Assembly: GCF_947301925.1 (NCBI RefSeq) | Contig: NZ_CAMYUE010000002.1 | Span: forward strand, 254,131-318,130 | DNA from: an uncultured Ruminococcus sp. | GTDB taxonomy: Bacteria > Bacillota > Clostridia > Oscillospirales > Ruminococcaceae | Length of the DNA stretch: 64,000 bases | Direction of reading: 5' to 3' | Shown here: piece by piece, positions 61,374 through 64,000 of the stretch | Layout: each line of letters opens with the position of its first letter | How positions within the stretch are numbered: the first letter of the stretch is position 1 | Notes under the pieces: model-generated | Seen by the model: only the letters and a program-made list of their open reading frames with translations | Told to the model about the DNA's origin: nothing | Database searches by the model: none | Made by a program: the position numbers and the translations under genes

Positions 61374-61389
61374 CACATAAGCAAATTCA

Positions 61390-61422
61390 TCGCCCGTCCG
61401 CAGAAATGGTCGGGCGATTTTT
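61390..61422 (+). terminator. Terminator of XRE-cupin/acyl-CoA synthetase operon
   Basis: An 8-bp stem ATCGCCCG/CGGGCGAT with a loop of about 14 bases, followed by TTTTT. Confidence 0.8.
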
Positions 61423-61438
61423 GCAAAAAAACAACGGG

Positions 61439-61469
61439 ATACCCCGTTTATTATTAATAGTATCCGTAA
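61439..61469 (+). promoter_or_regulatory. Putative SigI promoter of sigI-rsgI operon
   Basis: ATACCCC (61439-61445), 18 bases, CCGTAA (61464-61469). The same two elements with the same spacing stand ahead of the secreted proline-rich gene at 63398. C-rich -35 and CGWA-like -10 elements are typical of SigI promoters in Clostridium thermocellum. No sigma-A promoter fits here as well, so autoregulation is likely. Confidence 0.65.
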
Positions 61470-61496
61470 TCTATAAGTACAATGGGGGTGGCATAT

Positions 61497-62219
61497 ATGA
61501 ATTCTGATGCGCATCAAATCATATCCCAGGTCTATAAGGCAAAAACAGACAGCCACGCGGCAGATGAGCTCATCTCTGCTTATATGCCGTTCATAAAGTC
61601 GGAAACAGCCAGATTTATCAACCGTCCTCCCGACAAGAGCGACGACGAGCTCAGCATCGCCATGTTCGCCTTTTACGAAGCTATACAGAACTATTCCAAG
61701 CTTCGCGGATCATTCCTGAAATTTGCGGCACTGCAGATAAGGAACCGCCTGATAGATAACTACCGAAAAGAAAAGAAAAACAAAGGACAGATATCTCTCG
61801 ACGTTTCAGATGACGAAAAAACAGACCTGAAAGATACTATCCGTGACGAACACGACGTATATGAAGAAAACGAGCTCCGCGAGGCCACAAAGCAGGAGAT
61901 CGCCGAGCTGACTGCGCAGATGCAGGACTTCGGCGTTTCCATGAGCGACGTCGCAGACAATTCCCCCCGTCAGAAGCGTACTCTCGAAAGCTGTCAGAAG
62001 GCTGTACGCTATGCAAGAAACAATCCCGATATCCTTGAGGAATTCCTCAGGACCAAACGTGTCCCGCTGGCCAGACTTGCCGAGGGAGCAGATGTGGAGA
62101 GAAAAACTCTCGAAAGGCACAGACGCTACCTGGTGGCGGTGCTGCTCATATGCACCAACGGCTACGAGATAATGCGCGGACACATCATGCAGGTACTTAA
62201 AGGTGGTGAGAAAACATGA
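61497..62219 (+). CDS. sigI: RNA polymerase sigma factor SigI
   Basis: A 240-residue alternative sigma factor. The region-2 part is ADELISAYMPFIKSETARFI and later FYEAIQNYSKLRGSFLKFAALQIRNRLIDNYRKEK, the core-binding and -10-reading helices of SigI, and the C-terminal part carries a helix-turn-helix-like end (RLAEGADVERKTLERHRRYLVAVLLI). It has no extracytoplasmic sigma-factor region-4 of standard type, as in SigI. GGGGGTGG precedes the ATG at 61497; an earlier in-frame ATG at 61482 is closer to no ribosome site. The anti-sigma gene overlaps by 4 bases. Confidence 0.92.
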   Translation: MNSDAHQIISQVYKAKTDSHAADELISAYMPFIKSETARFINRPPDKSDDELSIAMFAFYEAIQNYSKLRGSFLKFAALQIRNRLIDNYRKEKKNKGQISLDVSDDEKTDLKDTIRDEHDVYEENELREATKQEIAELTAQMQDFGVSMSDVADNSPRQKRTLESCQKAVRYARNNPDILEEFLRTKRVPLARLAEGADVERKTLERHRRYLVAVLLICTNGYEIMRGHIMQVLKGGEKT

Positions 62220-63316
62220 AATATATAGTTATGGAATGTAATAAGGGTTTCGCAGTCCTTATGGACGAGGAATCCCGCTTTGTCAAGGCTGCCGATCTGC
62301 GCTATGAGGTGGGTCAGACAGTAACCGATCCCGTACTCATGGAAGAGGAGTCAGGCAGAGCAGGTAAAATAACTTTTCATGTGGGCCGCGCGATCGCAGT
62401 CGCAGCCTGTCTTGTACTCATGGTATCAGCCGGTTCGATATACTATTCAAGGAACCTCAAGCCTCATTCAACAATCGTTATCTCATCGGACGCTAATATC
62501 AGACTGGATCTCAATAAAAAGGGCAAGGTCCTCCATATAAGATGTGAGGACAGTCTCGGCAGGGAGATACTGAAGGACTACAACGGCAAGGGCAAGGATA
62601 TGCTCACCGTTGCAAACGAGATACTGGAGCTTGAAAAGGAAAAGGGCGTCATATCAGACGGCGACACGGTAAACTTCTATATAGAGTCGGATAATTCCGG
62701 AGACTTCAATACCTATAAATCCGATGTGGAGCACGGTATCGCTGATATCAATGTAAATGTACGCGGACTTGACAGATCCGCCCCCGAACCTCCAAAGAAC
62801 GGCGAAAAGTCTGCTGCTCCCGCAAAGCCCGGAGCTGAAAAACCGGATCCTGCAAAGAACGATACAAAGCCCGACGCTCCCAAGCCTCCCGCAAACGGCG
62901 AGAAGGTGCCGGAGCCTCCGGCTCCTCCCGCAGCTGCCGATCCTCCTGCTCCTCCGAATGGCGAGGTAAAGCCGGCGGAAGTAAACGATCCGCCCGCTCC
63001 GCCTGAACCGGCAGTAACACCGGAGCCTCCCAAGGAGGAGATAAAGCCCGGCAATAACAATGCGGAGCCTCCCAAGCCCGACGACGGAGTTGAGCCTCCA
63101 AAGCCCGAGGATCACCCTGCGGCAGTTCCGCCGAAGCACGATCCGAAAGCACTGCTGCCTGTGGGAGAGCACTTCCCAGACGCAGCTCTCATTGCGGACG
63201 AAGCACATATAGCTGTTCTTGCAGAGGAACCTGCTGAAAATATAACAGGGAAAGATGAAACGGAGCCTGCTCCGGTTCCACCTCCCTCTCCCCTTCCCCC
63301 GAGAAAACATGAATAA
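62216..63316 (+). CDS. rsgI: RsgI-type membrane anti-sigma factor with proline-rich ectodomain
   Basis: A 366-residue membrane protein that should hold SigI inactive until a surface signal arrives. Residues 1-52 are an RsgI_N cytoplasmic domain (MKYIVMECNKGFAVLMDEE), residues 58-77 a single membrane helix, residues 80-180 an extracytoplasmic domain with a repeated Asp/Asn-rich pattern, and from about 182 onward a long low-complexity region of Pro, Ala, Glu and Lys (units such as PEPPAPPAA and NDPPAPPEP). No carbohydrate-binding module is seen, unlike cellulosome RsgI proteins. A terminator follows. Confidence 0.88.
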   Translation: MKYIVMECNKGFAVLMDEESRFVKAADLRYEVGQTVTDPVLMEEESGRAGKITFHVGRAIAVAACLVLMVSAGSIYYSRNLKPHSTIVISSDANIRLDLNKKGKVLHIRCEDSLGREILKDYNGKGKDMLTVANEILELEKEKGVISDGDTVNFYIESDNSGDFNTYKSDVEHGIADINVNVRGLDRSAPEPPKNGEKSAAPAKPGAEKPDPAKNDTKPDAPKPPANGEKVPEPPAPPAAADPPAPPNGEVKPAEVNDPPAPPEPAVTPEPPKEEIKPGNNNAEPPKPDDGVEPPKPEDHPAAVPPKHDPKALLPVGEHFPDAALIADEAHIAVLAEEPAENITGKDETEPAPVPPPSPLPPRKHE

Positions 63317-63328
63317 ATATAGAGAAAG

Positions 63329-63361
63329 TACAGGACGCACGTAAGCGTCCTGTATTTTTTT
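63329..63361 (+). terminator. Terminator of sigI-rsgI operon
   Basis: A perfect 10-bp stem TACAGGACGC/GCGTCCTGTA, 6-base loop, TTTTTTT. It separates the sigI operon from the next gene. Confidence 0.95.
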
Positions 63362-63397
63362 ATACCCTCTGAAATATTTTTCAAAAATATTTTTGTG

Positions 63398-63428
63398 ATA
63401 CCCCTTTTTTTGTATTGGAACTCCGTAA
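63398..63428 (+). promoter_or_regulatory. Putative SigI promoter of secreted proline-rich gene
   Basis: ATACCCC (63398-63404), 18 bases, CCGTAA (63423-63428), identical in both elements and spacing to the element at 61439. An AT-rich inverted repeat (about 63371-63394) lies just upstream and may help activation. The start codon follows about 75 bases later. Confidence 0.65.
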
Positions 63429-63503
63429 ACTGTTAATGTAACACAAAACAAGTGTTAAACTCCCGAAGAGGAGTGTAATAAATAAGTAAAGGAGTAATCA
63501 ATC

Positions 63504-64000
63504 ATGAAAAGCAAAAAGCAAATTCTCGCTGCAATCGCTGCTATGTCTGTTCTCTCATCTGTAGCAGGACTTAACACATTTGCTGCAAACGAGAAAACAG
63601 AAGAGACAGCTGTAACAGTTGCAGCTGAGGAAACAGCAGAAGCTGTTGAGGAAGTTACCGACGACGCTGAAGCTGTAGATGCTGAGGCACCTGCTCCCGC
63701 TGAAGAAGACGGCGAGAAGCCCGAGCCCCCTGCACCGCCCGTAGCTCCCGAGGACGGCGAGCTCCCTGAGCCCCCCGCTCCTGTTGAAGGCGAAGAGGCT
63801 GAAAAGCCCGCTAAGCCCATCGTTATCGATGTAACAGATCTCCTCGATCAGATCCGTGACTTCATCGACGCTAACAAGATCGATATCCTCACAGACGATA
63901 TCATCGAGAACTGGGACAACATCAAGAAGGTTGACGTTCACTTCGATACAAACGAGAAGCCCGAGGCTCCCGTAGCTGAGGACGGCGAAGAGGCTGAGAA
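63504..64000 (+). CDS. Secreted proline/acid-rich protein, 3' end outside window
   Basis: At least 165 residues are visible. A signal peptide (MKSKKQILAAIAAMSVLSSV then GLNTFAA, cut probably after AFA near 27) leads to a low-complexity region rich in Glu, Ala, Pro and Gly (GEKPEPPAPPVAPEDGELP), then a short predicted helical part (TDLLDQIRDFIDANKID) and another acidic-proline stretch. The composition is close to the RsgI ectodomain. GTAAAGGAG precedes the ATG. It has its own SigI-type promoter and is separated from rsgI by a terminator, so it is a likely SigI target. Function unknown; a surface or wall-associated role is plausible. Confidence 0.75.
   Translation, partial: MKSKKQILAAIAAMSVLSSVAGLNTFAANEKTEETAVTVAAEETAEAVEEVTDDAEAVDAEAPAPAEEDGEKPEPPAPPVAPEDGELPEPPAPVEGEEAEKPAKPIVIDVTDLLDQIRDFIDANKIDILTDDIIENWDNIKKVDVHFDTNEKPEAPVAEDGEEAE

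Follow-up and report, generated by a model that had tools for sequence, protein, structure and literature searches.

Twin elements before sigI-rsgI and a neighbouring secreted-protein gene of Ruminococcus are very probably SigI promoters

Introduction

Two neighbouring intergenic regions in a 64,000-nucleotide stretch of Ruminococcus DNA (hereafter the window), one before sigI and the other before a gene for a secreted protein, share the same pair of short words. This raises the question of whether both are promoters read by SigI, the sigma factor encoded between them, and how far such a regulon extends. The window belongs to a 3.49-Mb genome (G000:C2), which we place in the Ruminococcus flavefaciens group: among the 80 matches listed, from which records of the genome itself were possibly excluded, the named SigI nearest to its own comes from R. 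flavefaciens ND2009, with 93% identity.

What is known of SigI rests on Bacillus and on cellulosomal Clostridium, and no work on SigI in Ruminococcus was found by title or abstract start among the best literature matches listed. According to PMC4711584, the Bacillales SigI promoter is given as ACCCCC--AA-N15-CGAA----T, and the C. thermocellum SigI promoters as AAA-N13/14-CGWA with a -35 of CCCYYAAA for SigI3 and CNNAAA for SigI6.

Results

Twin elements in the window

The sequence ATACCCC-N18-CCGTAA occurs in two exact copies, at 61439-61469 and 63398-63428, both on the + strand and nowhere else in the window. The pattern ATACCCCN{16,20}CCGTAA matches twice in the window versus 0 matches in 100 dinucleotide shuffles, which bears out the original observation of a 7-base and a 6-base word 18 nt apart with differing spacers. 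The features of the region are as follows.

61388..61424, + strand: terminator-like hairpin with T run after the acyl-CoA ligase gene, separating this gene from sigI
61441..61468, + strand: putative SigI-type promoter of sigI-rsgI (ACCCC 61441-61445, GTTTA 61446-61450, CGTA 61465-61468)
61497..62219, + strand: sigI, 240 aa when started at this ATG (the longest frame opens at 61482)
62216..63316, + strand: rsgI, 366 aa, with RsgI_N (weak), a hydrophobic stretch, RsgI_M and a long Pro-rich tail
63326..63361, + strand: intrinsic terminator after rsgI, from its fold energy
63400..63427, + strand: putative SigI-type promoter of the secreted-protein gene (ACCCC 63400-63404, T-tract 63405-63411, CGTA 63424-63427)
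63504..64000, + strand: 5' part of the gene (L007:3635-4639) that encodes a secreted repeat protein of 334 aa, rich in Pro and Glu; its 3' end lies outside the window

The hairpin between the ligase gene and sigI folds with -18.4 kcal/mol (61384-61428, z -3.2). The one after rsgI folds with -20.0 kcal/mol (63326-63366, z -7.2) and is followed by a T run, in agreement with the strong terminator that had been noted between the two units. Downstream of CGTA, the first element has CTATAA and the second CTGTTAA. By analogy with the C. thermocellum start sites in Table 1 of PMC4711584, sigI-rsgI transcription would start near 61478; the start for the secreted-protein gene is expected near 63437, and 76 nt separate the CGTA of the second element from the ATG of the secreted protein. 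The first -35 word also lies within a short inverted repeat, AACGGG-ATAC-CCCGTT (61433-61448), and the genus logo described below has no matching conservation upstream of TACCCC.

SigI and RsgI

The sigI product matches TIGR02895 over positions 1-218 of 219 (E 2e-48), with 165 bits, below the curated cut-off of 185. It is full-length and aligns to SigI6 and SigI1 (PDB 8i24 and 8i23) over nearly its whole length. It is the one full-length SigI match in the genome; 6 further matches, with E 8e-8 or weaker, cover the profile partly. At the position of the minor-groove His (His171 of SigI6), the product has Gln, as do the SigI of 63/63 genus loci and 111 of the 126 distinct SigI that we compared. 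In the available text of the published structural work, Gln is absent from the named mutants of this position.

The rsgI gene overlaps sigI by 4 bases, and its product has the architecture of an RsgI, with an RsgI_N domain (E 0.002, under its cut-off), a membrane stretch judged by hydrophobicity, and an RsgI_M domain (E 5e-8, over its cut-off). No binding module was detected by Pfam. The tail is rich in proline: the median Pro content is 24% in 62 genus RsgI tails (minimum 3%) versus 15% in 50 targets, and Pro makes up 3% of the 32 window frames of at least 300 aa.

RsgI self-cleavage takes place at a bond that we take to be Asn-Pro. Its register comes from PDB 8hdj_B and 8heq_B of RsgI2, which begin at the equivalent of A93 and are read as the RsgI2 fragment after the cut, supporting the Asn-Pro position. 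The window's RsgI has Asp-Ala there, and Asn-Pro is found in 0/62 genus RsgI. Among the 111 loci with Gln-type SigI, 26 have Asn-Pro, all outside the genus; the 85 without it comprise 61 genus loci, 23 near relatives (L206-L258), and L165. That loss of Asn-Pro is unique to the Ruminococcus lineage is not supported, since the same search also misses it in the single His-type locus, in 4/5 Ala-type loci, and in L165, with frames taken as called.

Conservation of the element across the genus

SigI was detected in 63 of the 125 genus genomes, and the sigI locus was read from each; the upstream region is readable in 62 of them, that of L094 being cut by the contig end. ACCCC-N19/20-CG(T/C)A lies within 160 nt upstream of sigI in 59/62, and the remaining three have ACCTC, ACCCT or ACACC, each a one-letter change in ACCCC, with CGTA at the right distance. 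CGCA takes the place of CGTA before sigI in 5 genus members. The words are kept, and the spacers have diverged between species and between the two sites of each genome.

We built logos from 51 distinct sigI sites and from 59 distinct target sites, each with a distance of 24; the two agree on TACCCC, a T-tract, a variable stretch, CGTA, and CT. The T-tract and CT are independent evidence in the sigI logo only, because the target set was chosen with them. CGTA begins 24 nt after the A of ACCCC, or 25 nt in some species. These logos refine the consensus first proposed: TACCCC, an A/T tract that is mostly T, CGTA and CT are retained, and the outer letters of the 7-base and 6-base words are less conserved. 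The resemblance to C. thermocellum promoters that had been claimed holds in part. Both window sites have a CGWA -10 at the correct distance from a C-rich -35, but ACCCC is the Bacillales -35, and the A-tract is here mostly a T-tract: 13-14 nt before CGWA the window sites have TTTA and TTTT instead of AAA.

We compared tract and SigI residue over the 126 distinct SigI loci. Those with Gln comprise 89 with a T-tract, 6 with an A-tract, 6 with a mixed tract, and 10 without a site by pattern. The others comprise 1 with His (A-tract), 5 with Ala (2 A, 1 T, 2 none), 6 with Ser (none found), 1 with Arg (T), and 2 unread. A strict pairing of Gln with the T-tract is thus ruled out, since both tract directions occur with Gln; the 6 A-tract loci of Gln type include L058, L063, L075 and L076 within the genus.

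Specificity in the genome and the genus

In the 3.49-Mb genome, ACCCCN{17,22}CCGTAA has 6 matches; the 4 besides the window pair overlap open frames, and 2 of these are an identical sequence on two contigs. We then searched the 125 genus genomes with the strict pattern ACCCCNYTTTN{14,15}CGTAN{2,3}CT, which matches 65 of them, comprising 60/63 with SigI and 5/62 without (G026, G050, G060, G077, and G107). The three genomes with SigI that lack a match are G041, G057, and G088. The reversed control has 0 matches in the 125 genomes. The refutation named beforehand, an element frequent elsewhere and unlinked to gene starts, is not what we find.

There are 115 strict matches, 114 of which were classed by the gene that they precede: 42 sigI, 60 the Pro-rich gene (assigned from the composition and signal-like beginning of its product), 3 CotH, 2 Cthe_2159-type, 1 proS, and 6 other. 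Among these 6, the contigs of L051 and L156 end close to where a Pro-rich gene would be expected to start, and L152 has a proS-like start downstream. In the genomes without detected SigI, the strict site precedes the Pro-rich gene in G077 (53% complete) and a Cthe_2159-type gene in G050; in G107, the gene behind it is cut, and its beginning resembles the Pro-rich gene. In L152 (G026) and L154 (G060), whose genomes have no detected SigI, a strict site stands before proS or a start that resembles it. The remaining three of the 6 are L138, L139 and L140 (G009, G010 and G021), which have in common a SigI-type site at about 2001, with no gene found in its direction; the site is followed by ATTATAATATACTG and may be the start of an antisense or small RNA.

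The secreted Pro-rich target

Pfam gave no match in 26/26 members of the Pro-rich family scanned. A profile (A1) built from 26 rows matches 65/125 genomes, namely 61/63 with SigI and 4/62 without. The two SigI genomes without a match are G044, which has a candidate divergent member, and G088. Among the four matches without SigI, those in G033, G053 and G067 cover only the signal-peptide part of frames of 882-886 aa, and that in G077 is nearly full length.

The gene and its site lie on a different contig from sigI in 8 SigI genomes. In five of these (G012, G013, G045, G075, G087), 4.7-8.7 kb downstream of sigI were read without meeting the Pro-rich gene; in the other three, the sigI contig is short, so physical linkage may still exist. 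The Pro-rich gene is on the opposite strand in L058, L065, L070, L074, L075, and L083. The target protein contains one or two copies of a unit of about 45 aa (63813-63950 and downstream, L007). In relatives, this unit is predicted to fold as helix-strand-strand-helix (model pLDDT 88), and the model has no significant match in the PDB (best E 4.6).

A likely third site and the size of the regulon

With a relaxed pattern, 5 places came up in the window's own genome. Two are the window sites, two are weak, and the fifth, C1:660383, is intergenic and reads ACCCC-N19-CGTAAACTATAA, with a mixed tract (GATTA), 337 nt upstream of a gene whose 898-aa product carries LTD, CotH and type I dockerin domains. 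C1:660383 is likely a third, weaker SigI site. The CotH-dockerin gene cseP of C. thermocellum is activated by SigI6 (PMC4711584).

For the best 30 CotH orthologues with upstream sequence read (27 from genomes with SigI, 3 from genomes without), the relaxed pattern finds a site before 6 of the 27, those of the window's genome, G008, G022, and G059, and weaker ones in G011 and G089; among the six, one has GCCCC and one lies 579 nt away. It finds none upstream of the other 21 or of the 3 without SigI; G015, one of the 21, has an ACCTC version.

A wide regulon was considered and rejected: of the places found in the own genome with three patterns, the two window sites and the CotH site alone were convincing. 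Weaker matches at C1:649315, C7:17042, C15:52172, C24:3209, C4:73348, C5:101876 and C13:58230 overlap open frames. C1:247932 overlaps none, has no tract, and is followed by the next frame 331 nt on; judged from its sequence, it is at best a weak candidate.

Sites beyond the genus

Outside the genus, we read the downstream genes of 25 sigI loci, which come from related genera in the family and from further families in the order and include L261-L265. Behind sigI-rsgI, 17 of the 25 have a lipoprotein-like gene with an RsgI_M-like signature, and 15 of these 17 genes have a lenient form of the site, (A/G)CCCC-N19/20-CG(T/C/A)A, in the 320 nt before them. As background, this form occurs in 58/10200 windows of 320 nt drawn at random from the opposite strand of the same loci, and in 470/10200 when both strands are taken with the real sites included. 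The tract is weak in some of the 15 sites (L262, L264). Pfam RsgI_M was confirmed in the two lipoproteins tested, those of L264 (with PepSY) and L322. In L312, three similar SigI-type sites stand in tandem before the RsgI_M lipoprotein gene.

The loci without such a lipoprotein are L305, L308-L310, L313, L318, L321 and L324, and L308 ends early. In L305, the gene behind sigI-rsgI (L305:3238-5085), with a site at -67, encodes a secreted protein that contains many EIIEPEVSEETSE repeats and has no match in Pfam. In L264, genes for VTC, DUF4956 and CotH follow sigI-rsgI-lipoprotein by Pfam, and other loci look similar by sequence.

Matching repeats in RsgI and target were tried as a rule and rejected: strict DTDYG-type repeats are common to RsgI and lipoprotein in only 4/17 lipoprotein loci (L261, L311, L314, L320), and we therefore keep the match as a lead. 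In Ruminococcus, the likeness between RsgI and target is one of composition only (Pro).

Discussion

Judged by sequence comparison, both window elements are very probably SigI promoters. We hold with high confidence that they serve RNA polymerase carrying the genome's only SigI, which would give autoregulation of sigI-rsgI and a dedicated secreted target. Autoregulation and a neighbouring target were both part of the original prediction, and the comparative data support them: the sites are kept while their spacers have diverged, and the motif is nearly confined to genomes with SigI and stays with the target gene away from sigI.

The elements might instead be operators for a DNA-binding repressor or activator, with transcription started by overlapping sigma-A promoters. 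The CTATAA beside CGTA does look like a sigma-A -10, one weak sigma-70-like match lies at 61454-61483, and the first element sits in the short inverted repeat at 61433-61448. However, the spacing and both words agree with published SigI promoters, and the presence of the element tracks SigI across the 125 genomes. Moreover, no sigma-70-like match lies near the second site, the region as a whole having 5 versus 4.3 expected. We consider this explanation very improbable. The probability that the twin elements reflect chance or a duplicated intergenic region is close to nil: the two sites are 1.96 kb apart, so that copying would be possible, but the diverging spacers, the kept words, the genus-wide conservation, and the 0/100 shuffles all contradict it.

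It is unlikely, if less so, that the circuit is a sensor of plant material with broad control over cellulosome genes, like that of C. thermocellum. The R. flavefaciens group, to which the organism belongs, forms cellulosomes, and one of its three own sites precedes a dockerin gene; against this, relaxed searches of the genome gave no convincing gene-linked site besides that of CotH, the RsgI lacks a Pfam-detected binding module, and the RsgI receptor suite is, according to PMC11557425, used only by microbes with Acetivibrio-type cellulosomes.

Taking SigI promoters as the preferred reading, we infer promoter activity, start points and the release step as follows. Membrane-bound RsgI would hold SigI in check, and release of SigI would start the circuit. 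By analogy with solved systems, SigI would read ACCCC in the major groove and the A/T tract next to it in the minor groove, and use as -10 the CGTA whose C lies 24-25 nt after the A of ACCCC. Freed SigI would switch on its own operon (positive autoregulation) and the secreted Pro-rich protein, as well as, in the window's species and some relatives, the CotH-kinase/lamin-tail/dockerin protein. Since the tract direction and the SigI residue are unlike those of the solved systems, these details of recognition should be checked before being transferred.

The role of the secreted protein may be one of feedback, and the recurrence of sensor-like targets suggests that this acts via a shared ligand or protease. 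We tentatively propose, as a somewhat doubtful generalization, that SigI throughout the order drives itself and a secreted look-alike of its sensor, a decoy whose feedback would shut the signal off. In several genera and families, the look-alike would be the RsgI_M lipoprotein; in Ruminococcus, it would be the Pro-rich, RsgI-tail-like protein. The secreted product could occupy the ligand or the protease of RsgI. The Ruminococcus RsgI probably no longer self-cleaves, and an outside first protease would then be needed. Self-cutting of the periplasmic domain of RsgI is described as the first signal step in PMC12203970, and a lineage without the known first cleavage bond allows asking how RsgI signals without it.

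As in Bacillales (PMC4711584), the Ruminococcus system has an ACCCC -35, a CG-A -10, a sigI-rsgI pair, and a promoter before sigI; unlike there, it has a T-tract instead of AA, CGTA instead of CGAA, a distance of 24 instead of 25, and a Pro-rich secreted protein as the neighbouring target. With C. thermocellum SigI/RsgI, as described in PMC4711584, PMC6056542 and PMC10575876, it shares the CGWA -10, an A/T tract 13-14 nt upstream, autoregulation, and a CotH-dockerin gene among the targets (cseP, SigI6). It differs from the latter in its single SigI, in Gln for His171, in the mostly flipped tract, in an RsgI without Asn-Pro or a Pfam-detected binding module, and in its few detected targets. The rumen lineage thus offers a very small, testable regulon with a clear consensus, and natural variation at a SigI residue and a DNA tract deemed essential by structural work; the occurrence of the tract in both directions allows asking how SigI reads either orientation of an A-tract.

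In PMC7112168, VTC (polyphosphate polymerase), DUF4956 and CotH are accessory genes of pel clusters, which L264 resembles by this trio alone. In the stretches read from the VTC-DUF4956 loci of the window's genome, the relaxed pattern has a single weak match, with ACCCT and CGCA and lacking a tract, some 0.6 kb upstream of the L326 VTC frame, and none at L325. Within the genus, L147 (G056) and L153 (G050) carry divergent VTC-domain and Cthe_2159-type genes, with a SigI-type element upstream of each.
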